Positions 1-18,051 of a stretch of 32,419 nt of DNA are shown one piece after another (position 1 is the stretch's first letter; each line of letters starts with the position of its first letter). The notes beneath the pieces were generated by a model. The model ran no database searches. It was not told the origin of the DNA and saw only the letters and a program-made list of their open reading frames with translations. The stretch is from Nitrosomonadales bacterium. Lineage in GTDB: Bacteria > Pseudomonadota > Gammaproteobacteria > Burkholderiales > Gallionellaceae. The stretch covers positions 1-32,419 of the forward strand of contig JAHFQY010000027.1 of NCBI GenBank assembly GCA_023259065.1, in the 5' to 3' direction. The translations under genes were made by a program, and so were the position numbers.

Positions 1-1514
1 TCCTTGGAGGCGGTGTTGATGGTGTCGGTCGCTTCCTTGATGCGGCTGATGACTTCGGTAAGCTGCTCTACAGTAGAGTTCGAGTCATCCTTGAGCGTGC
101 CGAAAGTGCCGTGGTATTCGCTAGTAATCTTCTCGGTCAGGTCGCCCTTGGCCAGTGCTCCCAGGACACGCACCACTTCGTTGAGGCCAACCTCACTGGT
201 TTGCATCAGGCTATTCATTTCCTCAGCCAAACGCTTGAAAAAACCTTCCTTGCCTTCAACGCTGATACGCTGATTGAAGTTGCCATTAGCCGCAGCCTGA
301 AGGATATTTTCGATTTCCTTCTCTATGGCCACCTCGTCTGTGCGGTCGCTCCATTCAATAGCTGATCCCAGCCTTTCACCCTGCTCATTAATTACCGGGC
401 ATGCAGCCAATGCAAAAGTTCGTCCAGCCACCTTGATTTCAGTGCGGTATGTACCGTTCAGATTGGCAAGTAACTGTTGTTGATGCGCAGGATTCTTGTG
501 AAACTGGTCGATATTGGCTCCCATCAGATTGGCGGCGCTGAAATTTGGCATTACCGTACGCAAGGCGCTTTCTGACTTGGTCATTAATGCGACAACAGAT
601 TTATTCAGGTAGATGATGTTGCGATTTTTATCTGCAATCATCACGCTGGTACCCACATTATCCAGTGCAACCTTGACCCGCATGGATTCATTGGCCGTAC
701 GCCTGGCATCAGACACCTCGAAGCCCATGCGTATTTGCATGGACTTCATTGCATACATCAGTCTGCCAATTTCGTCATCGCGATCAATTTCAATCCTGTT
801 TGTGTATCGCCCTTGGGCAATCTCATTAAGCTGGTTGCTGGCAAACTGGATCGGGCCAACCGTGCTGCGAATAAGAGACCAACCCGACCAGGCCAGGAAC
901 ACCGCGCCAGCAACCGCAATGGCCGCAATCATGGCGGGTTGAGCAGCGAAGGCTCCCAGCAAGCCAAGCGTTACCAGCAACAAGACTCCCATCGCCATCA
1001 TGATCAAAATGCGCGCCTTGATGGAGGCATTGCGCAATAGGCCAAGCTTGTCAGCAACTCCAGACCGCACCGCTTTACCTTCTCTTATGCGCAACTTGCC
1101 CTGCCTGCCCTCCCTGAACAGGCGGTAGGCGGCCTCATGTGCATCGATTACTGCCCGGCCAGGCTTGCTGCGCACGGACATATACCCCACCACTGACCCA
1201 CCTTCGTATACTGGTGTGGCATTGGCTACGACCCAATAATGATCGCCGCTTTTACGCCTGTTCTTTACGATCCCTGTCCATGGCTTACCTGCCTTTAATG
1301 TGCGCCACAAGTCAGCGAACGCTTCTTCCGGCATATCGGGGTGTCGCACCAGATTGTGCGGCTGTCCGATTAACTCTGCCTCACTAAACCCGCTAGCCTC
1401 GATAAAATCAGCATTGACATAAGTGATCAGGCCTTTTAGATCCGTTTGGGAAACGATGGAAGAGTCTTGTCTGAGCTCATATTCCACATTGGTCACTGGT
1501 GTGTTCATGCGCAT
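1..1514 (-). CDS. PAS-containing methyl-accepting chemotaxis protein (Aer-like), 3' part outside window
   Basis: A chemoreceptor read on the minus strand that runs off the window start, so the C-terminal signalling tip is not visible. I translated it by hand. The N-terminus (about residues 20-115) is a PAS domain of the Aer type, with the segments YVNADF, NLVRHPDMP and KSGDHYWV. Hydrophobic segments follow at about 168-205, then a HAMP-like stretch, then a second PAS domain (about 275-370, with MIADKNRNIIYLNKS) and a further HAMP/linker region (GALAKGDLTEKI). Aer-type receptors sense redox or energy state through a PAS-bound cofactor; whether FAD is bound here is inference. The start is the ATG at 1514, preceded by GGAGG at 7-nt spacing; a second ATG lies two codons in. 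It is the last gene seen in the second chemotaxis set, 80 nt after the CheA-like gene. Confidence 0.88.
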   Translation of the reverse strand, partial: MRMNTPVTNVEYELRQDSSIVSQTDLKGLITYVNADFIEASGFSEAELIGQPHNLVRHPDMPEEAFADLWRTLKAGKPWTGIVKNRRKSGDHYWVVANATPVYEGGSVVGYMSVRSKPGRAVIDAHEAAYRLFREGRQGKLRIREGKAVRSGVADKLGLLRNASIKARILIMMAMGVLLLVTLGLLGAFAAQPAMIAAIAVAGAVFLAWSGWSLIRSTVGPIQFASNQLNEIAQGRYTNRIEIDRDDEIGRLMYAMKSMQIRMGFEVSDARRTANESMRVKVALDNVGTSVMIADKNRNIIYLNKSVVALMTKSESALRTVMPNFSAANLMGANIDQFHKNPAHQQQLLANLNGTYRTEIKVAGRTFALAACPVINEQGERLGSAIEWSDRTDEVAIEKEIENILQAAANGNFNQRISVEGKEGFFKRLAEEMNSLMQTSEVGLNEVVRVLGALAKGDLTEKITSEYHGTFGTLKDDSNSTVEQLTEVISRIKEATDTINTASK

Positions 1515-1594: not shown

Positions 1595-3577
1595 TTATGC
1601 CGCCAGTCGGGCTTGTGCCGCATGGTGTCCACCCAGGGCCGTGACATCCAGAATCAGCGCCACCTTGCCATCGCCCATGATGGTGGCGCCGGACATGCCC
1701 GGCACCTTGCGGAAATTGGATTCCAGGCTCTTGATCACCACCTGGTGCTGGCCCAGCAGCTCATCCACCAGCAGGGCGGTTTTCTTGCCCTCGGCCTCGA
1801 TAATCACCACGATGCCCTGGCTCAGGTCGGTCACCGTGGGCTTGATGTTGAATACTTCATGCAACGCCACCAGCGGCAGGTATTCGCCGCGCACGCGCAA
1901 CAAGCGTCCCTCGCCACTGACTGATTTCAAATCCTCTTCGGTGATCTGAAGCGATTCAACAATTGACCCCAGTGGCACGATGAAGGTCTGGCCGGCAACC
2001 GCCACCGACAGCCCGTCCAGTATCGCCAGCGTCAACGGCAGTCGGATGGTGGTGCGCGTGCCAAAGCCTTCTGCGGAATCCAGCTCGACGCGGCCACCCA
2101 TGTCGGCGATATTGCGCTTCACCACATCCATGCCGACGCCGCGGCCGGAAACATCGGTGATGACATCGGCCGTGGAGAAGCCGGCTTCAAAAATCAGCAT
2201 CCATACCTGCTGGTCGCTCATATCATCAGATACGGGCAAGCCGCGCTCCCTGGCCTTGCTGAGTATCTTGCCGCGATTGAGGCCGCCACCATCGTCGGCC
2301 ACCTCGATAACGATGCTGCCGCCCTGGTGGAAGGCATTGAGGGTGATCGTGCCGTGTTCGGATTTGCCTGCGGCCAGACGTTTCTCCGGCGTTTCTATGC
2401 CGTGATCGAGGCTGTTGCGTATCAGGTGTGTGAGCGGGTCGGCGATCTTCTCGATCAAGCCCTTGTCCAGCTCGGTGGCCTCGCCCAGGGTCTTGAGCTC
2501 GACTTTCTTGTTGAGCTTGCTCGCCACATCGCGCACCACGCGCGGAAAGCGGCTGAACACAAAAGAGATGGGCAGCATGCGCACCGACATCACTGCCTCC
2601 TGAATGTCGCGGGTGTTGCGGTCGAGCTGGTTAAGACCGTTCTGCAGGCGTTCCAGCACCGACTCATCCAGTTGTGATGCGGATTGCGCCAGCATGGCCT
2701 GGGTAATCACCAGCTCGCCCACCAGGTTGATCAGCTGATCAACTTTTTCCACGCTGACGCGTATGGAATTTTCAGCGACAGGCGCCGCCACCTTGTCCGC
2801 AGCACGGCGTGTAGGATGGGCTTCTGCGGCAAGCATGGGGGAAACGGCAGGAACAGGTTGGGCGGCCGCTGTGGCAGCAGCTGTTACAGACGTTGCGGCG
2901 GGTGCAGATGGCTCGGTAAAAAATCCATAACCCTGCTTGTCTTCCTGCTCGGCCGAGTGCTGCGGCGTACCCTCAAAGAAGCCATAACCTGCATCGTCCG
3001 TGGCCGCCGGTGCAGCTACCGCAACCTCATCGAAGAAACCATAACTGTCATCATCGGAGCTTGCCTTGGAGAGCGCGGGAATATCATCGAAGAAACCGTA
3101 ATCGTCATCGACCGCTTCTGCAGGCTTCTTGGCGGAGCTTTTTGATTTTGCCTTGACTGTTTTTACTGGTGCAATGTCAGCTGCAGGTTGTGCCGAGGAT
3201 AGTTGCTCCAGCCTTGCGCACACCGCCGTGATCTGATCCTGATCGACTTCACCCTCGCCGCGATGCGCGGCAAGCTGCATGGAGATGGCATCTCCCGCTT
3301 CCAGAAACGCGCTGACCATATCGTCGGTCAGTGTCATTTCCTGTTTGCGCAATTTGTCCAGCAGGGTTTCCAGCACGTGGGTTACTGCTGTCATGTCATT
3401 GAAACCGAAAGTACCCGCCCCGCCCTTGATGGAATGCGCCGCACGAAAAATGGCATTCAGGTCATCCATGCTGGGATTGGACACATCCAGCGCCACCAGC
3501 AAGCTTTCCATGGAAGCCAGATGTTCGGCCGCTTCCTCAAAAAAGACCTGGTAAAACTGACTTAGATCAATGCTCAT
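1595..3577 (-). CDS. cheA: Second CheA-type chemotaxis histidine kinase, P2 replaced by Y-G-F-F repeats
   Basis: A 660-residue chemotaxis kinase that autophosphorylates and passes phosphate to CheY. In order: an HPt domain (1-125) with phosphorylatable His48 in AAHSIKGGAG; a linker (about 130-270); the P3 dimerisation domain (about 272-340); an HATPase domain (about 345-515) with N-box HLIRNSLDHG, G1 DDGGGL and G2 GRGVGMDVV; and a CheW-like P5 domain (about 520-650). No folded P2 CheY-docking domain is visible. In its place are four Y-G-F-F motifs at residues 160, 179, 198 and 217, an exact 19-residue period, flanked by Asp/Glu. The ATG at 3577 has AGGTGA upstream. The gene follows a second CheY and a membrane MCP and differs clearly from the CheA at 5328-7199, so it may serve a separate signalling array or modulate the main one. 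Confidence 0.95.
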   Translation of the reverse strand: MSIDLSQFYQVFFEEAAEHLASMESLLVALDVSNPSMDDLNAIFRAAHSIKGGAGTFGFNDMTAVTHVLETLLDKLRKQEMTLTDDMVSAFLEAGDAISMQLAAHRGEGEVDQDQITAVCARLEQLSSAQPAADIAPVKTVKAKSKSSAKKPAEAVDDDYGFFDDIPALSKASSDDDSYGFFDEVAVAAPAATDDAGYGFFEGTPQHSAEQEDKQGYGFFTEPSAPAATSVTAAATAAAQPVPAVSPMLAAEAHPTRRAADKVAAPVAENSIRVSVEKVDQLINLVGELVITQAMLAQSASQLDESVLERLQNGLNQLDRNTRDIQEAVMSVRMLPISFVFSRFPRVVRDVASKLNKKVELKTLGEATELDKGLIEKIADPLTHLIRNSLDHGIETPEKRLAAGKSEHGTITLNAFHQGGSIVIEVADDGGGLNRGKILSKARERGLPVSDDMSDQQVWMLIFEAGFSTADVITDVSGRGVGMDVVKRNIADMGGRVELDSAEGFGTRTTIRLPLTLAILDGLSVAVAGQTFIVPLGSIVESLQITEEDLKSVSGEGRLLRVRGEYLPLVALHEVFNIKPTVTDLSQGIVVIIEAEGKKTALLVDELLGQHQVVIKSLESNFRKVPGMSGATIMGDGKVALILDVTALGGHHAAQARLAA

Positions 3578-3715: not shown

Positions 3716-4081
3716 TCAACCAATTACTTTTTTCACCACTTCCAGCAGCTTCTGCGGGTCAAACGGCTTCACGATCCAGCCTGTCGCTCCTGCCGCCTTG
3801 CCCTGCATTTTCATGGCATCACTGGATTCAGTGGTGAGCATCAGCATGGGCACCGATTTATAGGCCGGCATGGCGCGCAGGCTCTTGATCAGCGTCAAGC
3901 CATCCATACGCGGCATGTTCTGGTCGGTCAGCACCAGGTCCACGGTCTTGCCTTTGGCCTTGTCCAGGGCTTCCTGGCCGTCCACCGCCTCGATGATTTC
4001 ATAGCCAGCGCTCTTCAGCGTAAACGCCACCATCTGGCGTATAGAACTGGAATCGTCCACACTCAATATCGTTTTTGCCAT
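3716..4081 (-). CDS. CheY-like response regulator (second copy)
   Basis: A single-domain receiver of 121 residues with no output domain. The acidic pair Asp9-Asp10, the phospho-acceptor Asp53 (in LVLTDQNMPRMDG), Thr83 and Lys105 (VKPF) are all present, so it should accept phosphate from a CheA. The ATG at 4081 has AGGGGA at good spacing. It sits 33 nt after the membrane MCP and 138 nt before the second CheA, which makes that kinase its likely phosphodonor. It differs from the E. coli-like CheY at 7959-8348 around the phosphorylation site (TDQNM instead of SDWNM). It could be a second motor regulator or a phosphate sink; the sequence alone does not decide. Confidence 0.95.
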   Translation of the reverse strand: MAKTILSVDDSSSIRQMVAFTLKSAGYEIIEAVDGQEALDKAKGKTVDLVLTDQNMPRMDGLTLIKSLRAMPAYKSVPMLMLTTESSDAMKMQGKAAGATGWIVKPFDPQKLLEVVKKVIG

Positions 4082-4114: not shown

Positions 4115-5317
4115 TCAAAACAAATCGATGTCGCCAGTTTCCATCTTGTCCTGGCGCACCGGGTTGCGGTTACCCATCTTTTCAGACTTGGCAAATATAT
4201 CACCGATTTCCGCGCGCATTTTTTCGATCTTCAGGTGCGAAGCCGCATGCCCCTGGGCAGCCTCGTTGGACCACTCGCCGAGGCGCTCCCAGGCTGATTC
4301 CACGCTGCTGATTTGCGTATGCGAATGCTGTAGCAACTGGCCAACCATATCCTGGAACTGCAAGGAGGTAATGGCTTGCCCCACCACCAGATCCACCTGT
4401 TGCGAGATCTCGTTTTGCTGCTCGATAACCTGGGTCATCTTGATGTTGGACTCACGCACCTCCTCAAGCTTGTCCTGCATTTTTTTCTTTGCCACCATCG
4501 CAATACCCACATCCTCAGGGGAAATGCCATTCACGGCCTCTTCGGCCAGTGCAATCACCTTGATCATCTCGGTAATATCCTTGCGGATTTGCTGGCTGAA
4601 CTTCTCGGAGCGGCTGGAAAGTTTGCGCACCTCGTCCGCCACCACGGCAAAACCGCGCCCCGATTCACCGGCGCGGGCTGCCTCGATCGCCGCATTCAGC
4701 GCCAGCAGATTGGTCTGTTTGGCAATCTGATCTATCTCAACCAGCACATTCAGCACGCTCATTACCTGCTCATTCAGGCTGCCCATCTTGAGCGCCATTT
4801 CGCGGCTCAGCTTATCGTTGGCAATAATGCCGGCCATCAGCTTGTCGAGATTCCTGATCGTCTCGGCAGTATCGGCCATGAATTTGTTTACCGAGGATTC
4901 GTCATGCCCGCTGTCGACAAAAACCAGTGCCAGGTCACGCTGGCTTTTGATCAGGTTCTGCATGCCATTGAAGCTGACGAAGAGCTTCTCGATTGCGTCT
5001 GCCAACAGTGCCTGCACCTGGTTCAGGTCGGCATTGGCGCCGGCAAAATGGCGGGAAAATTGCGGATGGGTTTGCAGCAGCACGCTTTCAACAGCGCTTT
5101 GCTGGGTTGCGCTTGCACTCTGAATTTTTTCTGCCCCCCTGGCTGAGGGACGCAACAGCCACCACAGTACGATCAGCGCAACTGAAGTAATGGCGCCGTG
5201 TATCAGCAACCCCATCCACTCCGCACCCATGCCATCCAGCATCCAGTGCAGCACTGCCGCAGCGATGACAACGCCTGCCAGCACCATGAGTTTGCTGTTT
5301 TGCCGTGTATCTTGCAT
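4115..5317 (-). CDS. Short-loop membrane methyl-accepting chemotaxis protein
   Basis: A 400-residue receptor-like protein. Two hydrophobic segments lie at about residues 11-27 and 35-56 with only about eight residues between them, so there is no periplasmic ligand domain. A cytoplasmic alpha-helical region follows, holding the conserved MCP hairpin tip at about 196-236 ([17 protein letters not shown], then [13 protein letters not shown]). No HAMP domain is obvious. Without an outside sensor it may read membrane or cytoplasmic state, or act as a scaffold. The ATG at 5317 follows AAGGGA, and the gene starts only 10 nt after the stop of the main cheA, so translation is probably coupled. It leads directly into the second cheY and cheA. 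Residues 61-190 look helical but I recognise no named sensory domain there. Confidence 0.9.
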
Positions 5318-5327
5318 GGCAAGTCCC

Positions 5328-7199
5328 TTATATATTGCTATCGCTGAGCAGTTCCTTGATATCCAGGATCAGCACAATCTCGCCTTCGCTGGACATGGTT
5401 ACACCGGCCACCCCTTTGGGACGGAAGGTATCCAGGGATTTGATCACCACATCATCATGCCCTGCAAAACCGTCTGCCGACAGGATGAAACTGTGGTTGC
5501 CCTGCTGCATCAGCACACCCACCTCGGATTTTCCGGAGTCTTCCCAGCCTATCAACCTGGCCAGCGACAGCAGCGGCAACACCTCGCCACGCACCACCAT
5601 GGTGGGCTTGCCGGAAATCAGCTGCTGCTCCTCTTCTGTCACCGACATGATTTCACGCACCATGGACAGCGGCACTGCAAACGGCTGGTCGCTCAGGCGC
5701 AACAACAGCACCGGCAAAATCGCCAGTGTCAGCGGCAGGGTGATGGTGAACACCGAACCACGGCCCGGCTCGGACTCAATCGAAATAGTGCCGTTGAGTT
5801 TCATGATGTTGGTTCTCACCACATCCATGCCCACACCACGGCCGGAAACACTGGATACCTCATCCTTGGTGGAGAAGCCGGGCATGAACACCAGATTCAG
5901 GCTGTCTTCCTCGCTCAGTGCGCTGGCGGCTTCCGGGGTAATCAGGCCTTTTTCTATGGCCTTGTTGCGCAGCACTTCGGCACGCATGCCGCGGCCATCG
6001 TCAGCGATGCTGATCACGATGTGATCGCCTTCCTGGCGCGCACTCAGCTGCACCACGCTCTTCTCCGGCTTGCCCGCCGCGGCGCGTTGCTCGGCGCTTT
6101 CCACGCCGTGGTCGACCGCATTGCGCACCAGATGCACCAGCGGATCGTTCAGATCCTCGATCATGGTCTTGTCGATTTCGGTTTCTTCACCGGACAACAC
6201 CAGCTCCACATCCTTGCCCAGCTGGCGCGCCAGATCACGCGCCAGGCGCGGGTATTTCTTGAACAAACGGCCGATGGGCTGCATGCGTGTATTCATCACC
6301 GCGTTCTGCAAATTCACCACCAGCATGTCAAGCTGGCTGACCGCCTCATCCAGCGATTTGAGCGTTGCCGGATCGGCACGCCCCTGCAGGATGTCGGTGC
6401 GCAAATGGGTCAGGCGGTTTTTGGTCAAACCGATTTCACCGGAAAGGTTAAGCACCTGATCCAGCCTGTCGGTGTCGACACGTATGGTGTTGTCTTTGGC
6501 GCCCGCCTCACCTTCGCGCCGTGAGGCAGAAGGTGCGGGGTTGCCGGGAATATCGTTGGCACGGCGCCCAAAGGCGCTGACCTTGAGCTGGTGCTCGTCT
6601 ATCACCACACCTGATTCGGATTGTGTTGCAGCGGCAGGCGCTGCTGCCACTGCAGGCGCAACGGGGGCGGCTGCAGTGGCTGTTCCCAGCAAGCCGTGGT
6701 AGAGCTGATTCCAGTCCGGCCCGGTTTGCGCCGCTGCCTGCAGGGCAGTGGAAACAACCGGTGCTGATGCTGCAGGTGCAGGCTTGGATGACACTGCGGC
6801 AACCTGTTCGCCATTCAGGGCGGCCTCCAGTGCTGCCAATACCTCAGGAGGCGCAGCCTGCGGCTGGGTATTCTTGCTCAGGTCATTGAACATCAGGCGC
6901 ACATCACCGGTCGCCGCCATGATCACATCAAGCAGGGAAGGCGTGAGCTGCAGCTCGCCATTGCGTAATTTGTCGAACAGATTTTCTGTCAGGTGGCACA
7001 GGGTCACCAGTTCATGCGCATTCAGAAACCCGGCGCCCCCCTTGATGGTGTGGAAACCGCGGAATATCACGTTTAACAGCGATTTATCGTCAGGAGATTT
7101 TTCCAGATCCATCAGCTTGCTATCCACATCGGACAGCAGGTCAGAGGCTTCCAGCAAGAAGTCCTGTAACAACTCTTCCATCCCTGTGAAGTCGCCCAT
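5328..7199 (-). CDS. cheA: CheA chemotaxis histidine kinase (main cluster)
   Basis: Chemotaxis sensor kinase of 623 residues from the ATG at 7199. An upstream in-frame extension overlaps cheZ and looks non-coding. Order: HPt with His50 in [13 protein letters not shown]; an Ala/Pro-rich linker (about 110-235) with a short [12 protein letters not shown] segment; P3 dimerisation domain; HATPase domain with [16 protein letters not shown] and GRGVGMDVV; and a C-terminal CheW-like domain. As in the second CheA, no folded P2 domain is visible, and the W-x-x-L-Y segment may be a linear docking motif (inference). The ATG lies 1 nt beyond the cheZ stop, so cheY-cheZ-cheA are tightly coupled. The kinase should couple the receptors through CheV, or a CheW encoded elsewhere, to phosphorylation of CheY. 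Confidence 0.96.
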
Positions 7200-7200
7200 T

Positions 7201-7962
7201 TCAGAACCCCAGGCTTTCCAATAGATCGTCAACCTGCGCCTGGCTGGTAACCACATCGGTACGCCCGGCTGCATTGACTACCGGCCCATTCAGCAAGCTG
7301 GAATCTATTTTTGCGCTGGCAGGTGCATGCTGCACCAGCAAAGTGACGAGTTGGCTTTCAAGATCCTGTGTCACTTCCATTATTTTCTTGATTACCTGGC
7401 CGGTGAGGTCCTGGAAATCCTGCGCCATCATAATTTCTGTCAGATGCGCATTGGTTTGCCTGGTCTGCTTGGGCACCTCGATCAGGTAGGCATGGGTGCG
7501 TGTCGCCAGCTGCTTGAATTGCTCCACGTCCATTTTCTGGTCAAACAGCTTCTGCCAGTCAGCCGCCAGCGCCTTCGCATCTTTCTCGATTTTTTCCACC
7601 ACGGGTTGCGCCGAGTCAGTGGCGTTGAGCACACGTTCGGCTGCCTGCTGCGTCATGGTGGCAATATAGTTGAGGCGGTCGCGCGAATCGGGAATGGCCG
7701 AGGCCGCCTGTTCCAGCTTTTTGTCAAAGCCCAGTTCGCGCAGGCTGTCATGCAGCACGCGCGTCATCTTGCCAATCTCGTTGATGACTTCCTCTTCCTC
7801 GCCCTTTGCCCCGCCCTGGGCTACAGCCTTGGCGGCTGCCACCGGGGCCGCCGGCTTGGCGCTGCTGCTTTCGCTGTTCGCCGTAACTATGCTGTCGAAC
7901 AGAGCCTCCAAATCGTCAGAGTCGTTATTTGCCGTCGCTTTTTTATTCATGGCATCACTCAC
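7201..7962 (-). CDS. cheZ: CheZ phosphatase of CheY-P
   Basis: Removes phosphate from CheY-P and so ends the motor signal. The 253-residue product has a disordered Ala-rich N-terminus (about 1-55), a long helical hairpin, and the signature DFQDLTGQ at 182-189; Asp185 and Gln189 correspond to the catalytic Asp143 and Gln147 of E. coli CheZ. The last residues ([13 protein letters not shown]) match the C-terminal helix by which CheZ binds CheY. The start is a GTG at 7962 overlapping the cheY TGA by four bases; an ATG four codons later (7950), with GTGAGTG upstream, is a good alternative. CheZ is typical of gamma- and betaproteobacteria, in line with the rest of the window. Confidence 0.95.
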
Positions 7963-16813: not shown

Positions 16814-16855
16814 GTGTCCAATATATTTGACACATCACAGGACGGGTATTAGCAT
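16814..16855 (+). promoter_or_regulatory. Promoter and operator of the XRE/nucleotidyltransferase operon
   Basis: -35 TTGACA (16827-16832, perfect), 17-nt spacer, -10 TAGCAT (16850-16855, 4 of 6). Transcription would start near 16862, next to the ATG at 16863, so the mRNA is probably leaderless; no Shine-Dalgarno sequence is visible. A 20-bp palindrome with one mismatched pair (16814-16833, arms GTGTC and GACAC around AATATATT) covers the -35 and fits autorepression by the XRE protein. Confidence 0.7.
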
Positions 16856-16862
16856 TGCCGCC

Positions 16863-17327
16863 ATGCACATAGACATTCACACCATCGGCCGGCAAATCAA
16901 GCAATCCAGACTGCAAGTCGGCATCAGTCAGGCTGAACTTGCCCGTCTGGCGGAAGTTTCTCGCGCCACCATCAATGGCATAGAGAACGGCACAATCAAA
17001 GAAATTGGGGTAAACCGCTTGAACAGGATCGTGGCAGTCAGCCGCAGCCTGCCTGTGCCACATAAAACAATCGGCACATCCAGGCGTAAATCGGCCCGTC
17101 TTGACCTGTCGTTCCCCTACGACTGGAGCAATCCGTCCATGACAGACGATGTCCTGATCGACAAGGTAGTTGAGCGTGGCTTGTTCGAAGACATGGTCAA
17201 AATTGCCATCCGCTATGGTGTAAATGCTTTGCGACTATCCATCACGGCATTTACCTCCAGAAACAGCCTGTCCGCACCCGGATTGAACAGGATGCTGGGC
17301 AATATCGAAAAGGCTTTGCATGCTTAA
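16863..17327 (+). CDS. XRE-family helix-turn-helix regulator, probable antitoxin
   Basis: A 154-residue protein with an N-terminal XRE helix-turn-helix (about 8-62; IKQSRLQVGISQAELARLAEVSRATINGIENG in sense) and a C-terminal domain of about 75 residues (from FPYDWSNP, through LIDKVVERGLFEDMVKIAIRYGVNALRLS, to NRMLGNIEK) that I cannot name. The ATG at 16863 matches the HTH start and the inferred transcription start; a TTG at 16827 in the same frame is actually the -35 element. The gene overlaps the nucleotidyltransferase gene by 8 bp. By position and by analogy with AbiE systems it should be the antitoxin and autorepressor, but the usual AbiEi winged-helix antitoxin is absent. Codon and base use look more A+T-rich than in the motility genes, which hints at transfer. 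Confidence 0.85.
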   Translation: MHIDIHTIGRQIKQSRLQVGISQAELARLAEVSRATINGIENGTIKEIGVNRLNRIVAVSRSLPVPHKTIGTSRRKSARLDLSFPYDWSNPSMTDDVLIDKVVERGLFEDMVKIAIRYGVNALRLSITAFTSRNSLSAPGLNRMLGNIEKALHA

Positions 17328-18051
17328 ACTGGAGTTTATGCCGGAGCGCACAAGGCGAGTATTCGATGCCTTGGCAAAAGAACCGCTAATGCACGGCTTT
17401 GTGCTAATCGGCGGAACCGCATTATCTATTCAGCTTGGACATCGCTTGAGCGAAGACCTTGATTTTTGGTTGCCCAGCGCAGCCATGTCCAAAGACCGGG
17501 TGAATTCCATTTTGGAAAACCTGGCGACCGCCGGACTTCATCACGAATTTGCCACGCCAGCCTGGAAATTGTCGCAAGCGCGTATCAATGGTATTGACCT
17601 GCTATCACAAAGCCGAGACCACGTTGTCGACGGCGTGAAAGTGACATTCTTTGCGCGCAATGATGTTCCTTATCGCCATTTCGCAGGAATGAAAAGAATC
17701 CGGGGCCAATCTCAATTCGACATTGCCCATGAAGAAACCATTTTCCACATGAAGGCATGGCTGCTATCACAACGCGTGCGTTCTCGTGATCTGTATGACT
17801 TGATGGCAATGTCGCAGCGGGGGAAAACCATGGCGGATATTCTTGAAGCAGGCTCGCAGGCTGATCCCTCTTTTCAGCGCGAATATGCGAAAGAAGTATT
17901 GGTAGGAAACATTCCGCTTGATGCCGATGACGAGGGATTTGATTCCATTGAACTCGATATCACCGTGAGGGATATTCAACAGTTTTTTCTTTCGGCGGTG
18001 AATCGATATGAAATACAAGTGGCGTCAGAAATCGCCAATAAGTTGCGCTAG
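17320..18051 (+). CDS. AbiEii/AbiGii-like nucleotidyltransferase, probable toxin
   Basis: A 243-residue protein of the AbiEii-like nucleotidyltransferase family, known as the toxin half of abortive-infection and TA systems; characterised relatives transfer nucleotides to tRNA or other targets. The signature is clear: Gly31-Gly32-Thr-Ala, then HRLSEDLDFW with Asp46 and Asp48 as likely metal ligands. The downstream helix MKAWLLSQRVRSRDLYDLMAM (here about 144-164) matches the conserved K...R-D-x-Y-D part of the family. The ATG at 17320 has AAAAGG upstream and overlaps the regulator's stop by 8 bp, so translation is coupled. It ends 40 nt before a strong bidirectional terminator and faces the tRNA-rpoD unit tail to tail. 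Confidence 0.85.
   Translation: MLKLEFMPERTRRVFDALAKEPLMHGFVLIGGTALSIQLGHRLSEDLDFWLPSAAMSKDRVNSILENLATAGLHHEFATPAWKLSQARINGIDLLSQSRDHVVDGVKVTFFARNDVPYRHFAGMKRIRGQSQFDIAHEETIFHMKAWLLSQRVRSRDLYDLMAMSQRGKTMADILEAGSQADPSFQREYAKEVLVGNIPLDADDEGFDSIELDITVRDIQQFFLSAVNRYEIQVASEIANKLR

Follow-up and report, generated by a model that had tools for sequence, protein, structure and literature searches.

The phosphatase CheZ combines a helix bearing the DxxxQ signature with a C-terminal tail that binds CheY, and the N-terminal peptide of FliM binds CheY on its alpha4-beta5-alpha5 side. The P2 domain is lacking in about half of CheAs, in which the region is extended and unstructured according to the excerpts available of PMC10782961. 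For the F7 chemosensory systems, the excerpted text of PMC7184735 gives the simplified gene order mcpA-like, cheY, cheA, cheW, aer2-like, cheR, cheD, cheB, with mcpA located elsewhere in stage 1 systems and lost in stage 3, and with cheY but no cheZ in stage 1–2 clusters. The same excerpts describe the C-terminus of the McpA-like proteins as conserved and important, with an unclear role, and as not matching the C-terminal pentapeptide for CheR, x-[HFYW]-x-x-[HFYW], found on Aer2/McpB receptors; the matched passages of PMC9855816 hold no statement on the McpA C-terminus. In Comamonas testosteroni, CheA phosphorylates CheY1, whose locus tag is next to cheA, and CheY1 shows fast phosphate loss and a partial reduction of chemotaxis upon its deletion (excerpts of PMC6391922).

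A chemosensory locus opens the 32,419-nucleotide stretch of Nitrosomonadales (Gallionellaceae) DNA analysed here, hereafter the window. The gene order seen in it is mcpA-like, cheY, cheA and a PAS-HAMP frame; the contig ends at window base 1, before any cheW, cheR, cheD or cheB of this cluster. The features of the CheA are as follows.

1595 to 3577, minus strand: probable F7-type CheA histidine kinase of 660 aa, with Hpt, linker with four YGFF motifs, dimerisation, kinase and CheW-like domains
2771 to 3199, minus strand: acidic, A/P-rich, P2-less linker from Hpt to P3 (about residues 127–269), bounded by the HMM matches of P1 and the core
3089 to 3100, minus strand: YGFF motif 1, residue 160, from the CheA translation
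3032 to 3043, minus strand: YGFF motif 2, residue 179, from the CheA translation
2975 to 2986, minus strand: YGFF motif 3, residue 198, from the CheA translation
2918 to 2929, minus strand: YGFF motif 4, residue 217; the step from motif 3 to motif 4 is mostly kept at 19 in the family

This CheA matches the Pfam domains Hpt, H-kinase_dim, HATPase_c and CheW, and Pfam finds no P2 or CheY-binding domain in it. Its closest solved relative is 6s1k, listed as chemotaxis protein CheA (1.6e-186), and it scores 767 bits against NCBIfam PRK10547, slightly below the cut-off of 793. A tblastn search of a plasmid collection gave CheA-type matches in 453 records, and among the matches listed E. coli records resemble the window CheA at ~60% over 80% of its length. 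The PAS-HAMP frame (window 3–1514, minus strand) follows cheA directly and is cut by the contig end; in several relatives the same place after cheA is taken by a CheW-like match.

We propose that the YGFF repeats of this linker, the C-terminal tail of a DxxxQ protein encoded upstream and the tail of CheD would all be docking sites for the F7 CheY through one code, a reading to which we assign a probability of roughly one half, slightly on the favourable side. Through YGFF motifs of the form [DE]-rich, G-[YF]-G-[FL]-F, then [DE], the disordered linker of CheA would keep the F7 CheY, the product of the gene immediately upstream, close to the Hpt phosphodonor. The CheA motif would be of the same class as the tail [DES]-[IV]-[DET]-[LF]-F on the McpA/CttP-like DxxxQ protein and on CheD, and kinase, phosphatase and deamidase would bind, and compete for, one surface of CheY, the P2-facing alpha4-beta5-alpha5 side. 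If this is true, a single motif ties together the holding of CheY by a P2-less CheA, the conservation of the McpA-like C-terminus and the dephosphorylation of F7 CheY. The peptide DDAGYGFFEGTP is a predicted candidate for a CheYb-binding sequence.

As the preliminary description reported, YGFF occurs at CheA residues 160, 179, 198 and 217, in three exactly equal steps of 19 residues, and is followed, in order, by D, D, E and T. Among 100,000 shuffles of the 138-residue linker, one YGFF copy arose in 57 and two in none. The 57-nt repeat units are identical, pairwise, at 25–36 of 57 nt and the codons differ among the four YGFF stretches, which indicates that the repeat is old or selected and, as already supposed, not a recent DNA duplication. 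An exact period like that of the window CheA could also arise by chance or from recent duplication within a single genome; the presence of the motif in 91 of 181 CheA linkers, together with the varied codons and the low identity of the units, reduces the probability of this explanation to almost nothing, and the homologues rule it out. The pattern [YF]GFF is absent from the frame of the window's other CheA (5328–7274). A search of the window's genome for G[YF]G[FL]F, whose leading Gly restricts it to two of the four CheA copies, gave 12 DNA matches; of the other ten, two lie in no frame above 80 aa, and the eight that lie in frames are not flanked by acidic residues on both sides.

The homologues examined comprise 189 CheA loci: the window's own, 29 from 60 whole-genome relatives, 80 named contigs and 79 further loci chosen from matches in 276 genomes of the class and 250 of the order. 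A parsable Hpt-to-P3 linker was obtained for 181 of them (L066, L068, L070, L072, L101, L105, L161 and L164 were dropped), and L063 was additionally left out of the CheA tree. The pattern [YFW]G[FLIM][FWY] occurs in 272 copies in 91 of the 181 linkers, a fraction that is not a prevalence, the loci having been chosen by similarity to the window CheA, with manual selection of the last 79, for the most part of a single locus per genus code. Shuffled linkers contained a mean of 1.0 and a maximum of 4 copies (200 shuffles), and outside the linker the same CheAs contain the pattern three times. Position -3 is acidic in 62% of the copies and position +5 in 54%, with basic residues there in 4% and 1%, respectively, and the consensus reads acidic-acidic-acidic-x-G-[YF]-G-[FL]-F-[DE]-[DEP]. 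The repeats thus behave as the short linear motifs that they had been suggested to be. The motif is more general than the single window CheA indicated; judged from these alignments, an F7 (E. coli-type) group of CheAs conserves it as a linear motif with acidic flanks.

Motif-bearing named loci come from Herbaspirillum, Janthinobacterium, Massilia, Herminiimonas, Zoogloea, Dechloromonas, Chromobacterium, Comamonas, Hydrogenophaga, Mitsuaria, Alteromonas, Rheinheimera and Salinimonas. No copy was seen in the linkers sampled from enterics, Halomonas, Xanthomonas, Burkholderia, Pandoraea, Vibrio, Shewanella, Pseudoalteromonas, Pseudomonas, alphaproteobacteria and Helicobacter. Copy number ranges from 1 to 7 per linker. 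Multiple copies, variable spacing and an acidic disordered context are also what would be seen in a sticker-spacer linker, in which aromatic motifs act collectively in clustering or condensation with no single partner. This is very improbable in view of the strict [YF]-G-[FL]-F order, the fact that the named Comamonas, Hydrogenophaga and Mitsuaria loci have one copy each, and the one-copy C-terminal version found on other proteins.

The fixed period had been taken to suggest selection on spacing, and the alignment of homologues, set in advance as the test of the period, speaks against this: the motif is retained and the period is not. In the family of the window CheA, which numbers 18 CheAs, the 38 non-final steps span 12 to 31 residues and equal 19 six times; in CheAs outside the family, 126 steps span 9 to 36 and equal 19 twelve times. 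Only the last step is held in the family, at 19 in 13 of 17, and the last motif pair of the family linkers (e.g. L001, L011 and L016) is joined by the spacer T-P-x(9)-Q-G-[YF]GFF. The arrangement 19-19-19 is unique to the window CheA among the 18, the nearest being L018 (three copies, steps 19 and 19), and in this comparison looks like a coincidence on top of one conserved last step. The mostly constant last step with its Thr-Pro and Gln-Gly context, and the fact that the linker connects Hpt to P3, would be consistent with regulatory elements that act in cis or trans within CheA, binding for example P4, P5 or Hpt, and tune kinase activity. However, the same motif class forms the C-terminal tail of other proteins, and no docking is seen in the predicted Hpt-linker part (a fold of Hpt and linker, CheA 1–225), so that we regard this possibility as decidedly unlikely.

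The statement that the repeats replace P2 is partly upheld. P2 was called with an iterated profile, which may have drifted (bearers score at least 37 bits and others at most 25), and by this measure it is present in 66 of the 91 motif-bearing CheAs, which rules out replacement as a rule. The 25 under the cut-off include 17 of the 18 window-family CheAs and three Alteromonadales, and the part of the claim that stands is that the motif is retained where P2 was lost; the window CheA linker itself scores 15 bits. At least one of the 25, L144, may contain a divergent P2, given the 91 linker residues that come before its first motif. CheAs without P2 do not clearly carry more copies (mean 3.6 versus 2.8, Mann-Whitney p = 0.053). 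Since P2 and motif occur together in so many linkers, the motif probably did not arise as a P2 substitute, though it was kept after P2 loss. P2 of the E. coli and T. maritima CheAs occupies the same place between Hpt and P3 and has the same inferred job, bringing CheY near Hpt; it differs in being a folded domain, whereas the window-type CheAs carry unfolded four-residue motifs, often besides a P2.

The putative docking partner and its most telling residue are placed as follows.

3716 to 4081, minus strand: CheYb, F7-type CheY of 121 aa adjoining cheA, putative docking partner, from Pfam, gene place and comparison
3812 to 3814, minus strand: codon of CheYb Met90 (E. coli CheY position 94), the best discriminator of motif-bearing and motif-less loci

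Of the 95 motif-bearing loci (the 91 with the standard motif and four with the variant motifs described below), 94 have a CheYb-type gene upstream of cheA, L025 having an MCP end instead. CheYb residue 90 is Met in 92 of these 94 versus 2 of 54 motif-less loci, where it is Lys in 41. Seven of the ten best-discriminating CheYb positions fall within residues 86–121, that is, within alpha4-beta5-alpha5, which make up 36 of 121 positions (hypergeometric 0.007); the remaining three are 54, 67 and 76. The excerpts of PMC7184735 place E. coli CheY positions 92 and 94 among those facing P2. Met is also found at position 90 in the gammaproteobacterial motif-bearers L058, L086 and L097 (three Alteromonadales), and Tyr or Phe in motif-less Pandoraea L073 and Burkholderia L077 and in the motif-less loci L137 and L141. 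The motif is gained or lost only seven times on the CheA tree and independent co-changes are therefore few: motif and Met90 gave two starred, well-supported pairs, mostly in the same direction. The association thus appears to cross phylogeny in a few cases and, with few independent pairs, is suggestive. The adjacent CheY, which the preliminary description had named as a possible partner, is the best candidate on the grounds of co-occurrence, the matching tail of the neighbouring protein and covariation on the P2-facing side, from which we infer binding.

The neighbouring protein and the CheZ used for comparison have the following features.

4115 to 5317, minus strand: McpA/CttP-like protein with MCP signalling domain, CheZ-like DxxxQ helix and C-terminal tail, from Pfam and alignment
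4337 to 4357, minus strand: FQDMVGQ (DxxxQ) stretch, the family profile being in register with the FQDLTGQ helix of CheZ
4118 to 4135, minus strand: C-terminal tail GDIDLF, like the CheA motif class, from the translation and the tail pattern
7201 to 7962, minus strand: CheZ from the adjacent CheA1/CheYa gene set, included for comparison (FQDLTGQ; C-terminal end DDLLESLGF), from Pfam

The product of 4115–5317 is an MCP-like protein of 400 aa encoded upstream of cheY-cheA and, by place and tail, would be the McpA/CttP-like gene of F7 clusters. Sixteen aligned sequences of this type have as strict constants only Q-F-x-D-x-x-x-Q and a terminal Phe, and the usual C-terminus is NPVxQxxMxSGD[IV][DE]LF. 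An upstream LQFxDxxxQ frame is found in 77 of 95 motif-bearing loci versus 5 of 86 motif-less ones, a search that undercounts motif-less systems with mcpA elsewhere. The last residue is Phe in all 77 frames, and the one before it is Leu in 74, Met in 2 and Phe in 1. Among the 18 loci without such a frame, nine have less than 1.2 kb of upstream sequence, L057 has the tail without DxxxQ, and eight have neither tail nor DxxxQ gene in at least 3.5 kb upstream. For the tail pattern alone, 74 loci have both tail and motif, 17 the motif only, 9 the tail only and 81 neither. On the tree, motif and tail gene gave two starred pairs, mostly in the same direction, in an underpowered comparison; with the strict motif there are three pairs, and the tail is unchanged in most.

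When profiles are compared, the DxxxQ helix and that of CheZ fall in register (hhalign 77.8%, E 1.9e-5, in a single comparison), and from DxxxQ to the C-terminus there are 80 residues in the window McpA-like protein versus 71 in the window CheZ. The window protein has no Pfam CheZ match at E ≤ 5, and one of eight proteins scanned (L040) matches the CheZ model at E 0.072, short of the cut-off. The resemblance to CheZ thus consists of a helix in register and a hydrophobic C-terminal tail 71–80 residues later; the two differ in the tail itself, LLESLGF in CheZ versus GD[IV][DE]LF, and in the MCP signalling domain that the window protein also has. On this likeness, the McpA/CttP-like DxxxQ protein is a probable CheZ-like phosphatase for the F7 CheY. 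The McpA/CttP-like receptors of F7 systems in the excerpts of PMC7184735 (PA0180, VCA1088) share the place next to cheY-cheA, the MCP domain and the conserved C-terminus; the genes compared in the present loci are in addition tied to a DxxxQ signature, occur also without the MCP part and are matched to the CheA motif.

In 26 motif-bearing loci the DxxxQ gene is reduced to 152–246 aa, with helix and tail and no MCP hairpin. Among the named loci, L040–L042, L051, L052, L063, L064 and L074 have lost the MCP part and retain helix and tail. Because helix and tail remain where the MCP part is gone, the loss of mcpA in stage 3 may need revision, the gene appearing to be reduced, not gone.

A tail gene without the standard CheA motif is present at nine loci, and at four of these the CheA carries, by eye, an altered, tail-like motif: repeated EDMGLFEP beside a neighbour tail GGMDLF (L168), FELF beside GEVELF (L166), YEFF beside GDMEMF (L159) and, as a weak case, AGFF beside GDVELF (L156). 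No variant motif was seen in the CheAs of L098, L107, L108, L110 and L191 (three Pseudomonas, one Nitrospira record and L191). The four variants are the best single hint that motif and tail may share a binding surface.

The tail was also searched for genome-wide, as [DE]-[IVM]-[DE]-[LF]-F-stop. In the window's genome, the assembly of which is 77% complete, it occurs at five places versus two for a reversed-pattern control, and all five end chemosensory-type frames: two CheD (by Pfam), two MCP-like proteins that contain DxxxQ and one further DxxxQ protein that Pfam does not match. In eight other genomes it is hardly commoner than the control (10 places versus 8), and there only the kind of protein matched, not the count, favours the tail: the five motif-bearing genomes hold nine places, of which seven are CheD-like or DxxxQ proteins, one a GGDEF protein and one a 62-aa frame, the enteric genome holds one (a 45-aa frame), and the Burkholderia and Pseudomonas genomes none. 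The two CheDs of the window's genome, L209 (C22:80625) and L212 (C59:27547), end in the tail form [DES][IV][DET][LF]F. Its DxxxQ protein without a Pfam match, L213 (C65:104169), is a 207-aa frame with FQFYDKLVQ and the tail DDIELF, and is a candidate for a further CheY phosphatase. The GGDEF protein of the Mitsuaria genome (L214:469–1515, by Pfam) ends in SDIELF, a possible link of the tail to c-di-GMP signalling.

Among 33 CheD-like frames, so called from a short pattern in their sequence (for two other CheDs, L209 and L212, the call is by Pfam), 29 end in the tail or within two residues of it by eye, and 17 by the strict pattern. Burkholderia L077, which also lacks the CheA motif and the upstream DxxxQ gene, has a CheD without tail. 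Tails are likewise present on the CheD and McpA-like proteins of motif-less systems, from which it follows that the tail probably predates the CheA motif and, CheYb residue 90 being mostly Lys in such systems, that Met90 cannot be required for the tail, to judge from the sequences compared.

CheD acts on receptors and is, to our knowledge, no CheY enzyme, so that motif and tails might have some other common partner. Motif and tails could instead recruit their proteins to a shared part of a scaffold or array, such as CheW, a receptor, CheA P5, CheB or a polar landmark. The tail on a receptor-acting CheD and on MCP-like McpA, together with its presence on the CheDs of motif-less systems, agrees with such recruitment. 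The reduced DxxxQ genes, in which helix and tail persist once the MCP hairpin is gone, and the association of the motif with the P2-facing side of CheYb do not, and on balance we consider recruitment away from CheY rather unlikely, if the most serious of the alternatives to docking on CheY.

Structure prediction lends the docking on CheY that had been anticipated no support for the motif and weak support for the tail. In an AlphaFold read-through of CheYb and CheA(1–225), the CheY and Hpt domains are predicted well, whereas the linker up to residue 225 has low pLDDT and no secondary structure, the ten-residue blocks around the four motifs having mean pLDDT values of 46, 40, 39 and 42; the complex shows no confident motif docking, a result that with a 35-row alignment is compatible with docking. 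In the corresponding read-through of the C-terminal part of the McpA-like protein and CheYb, the tail forms a short strand (I-D-L) at pLDDT ~50 or lower, with a pTM of 0.49. There, too, no confident docking is seen, which is equally compatible with docking given an alignment of 26 rows, from which the tail-only rows except L107 were left out (misplaced by MAFFT).

More tentatively, and with somewhat less than even confidence, the docking reading may be extended to one F7 CheY code for the whole phosphate cycle, with 1–7 internal copies on CheA and one C-terminal copy each on the DxxxQ protein and CheD. The DxxxQ protein would then be the missing CheZ of F7 systems, cut to helix and tail in several betaproteobacteria, and the CheA motifs would have assumed the role of P2 in two lineages or more, namely in most of the window's family and in Alteromonas/Rheinheimera/Salinimonas. 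The FliM peptide is similar as a short peptide on the proposed side of CheY, and dissimilar in its sequence, its single copy and its origin from a motor protein. The Aer2/McpB pentapeptide, as excerpted in PMC7184735, is likewise short and serves as an aromatic tether at the C-terminus of proteins from clusters of this type. A search of one open library found no relevant title on the motif or tail in the chemotaxis literature. What appears to be new is the repeated linear motif in the linker of F7-type CheA, in a form shared with the tails of McpA-like and CheD proteins, and a McpA/CttP-like neighbour of cheY-cheA that has a CheZ-like DxxxQ helix and the tail GDIDLF.

Elsewhere in the window, an HTH and AbiEii-like nucleotidyltransferase pair of the type IV toxin-antitoxin type (16827–18051) lies close to flhC and an rpoD-type sigma gene.
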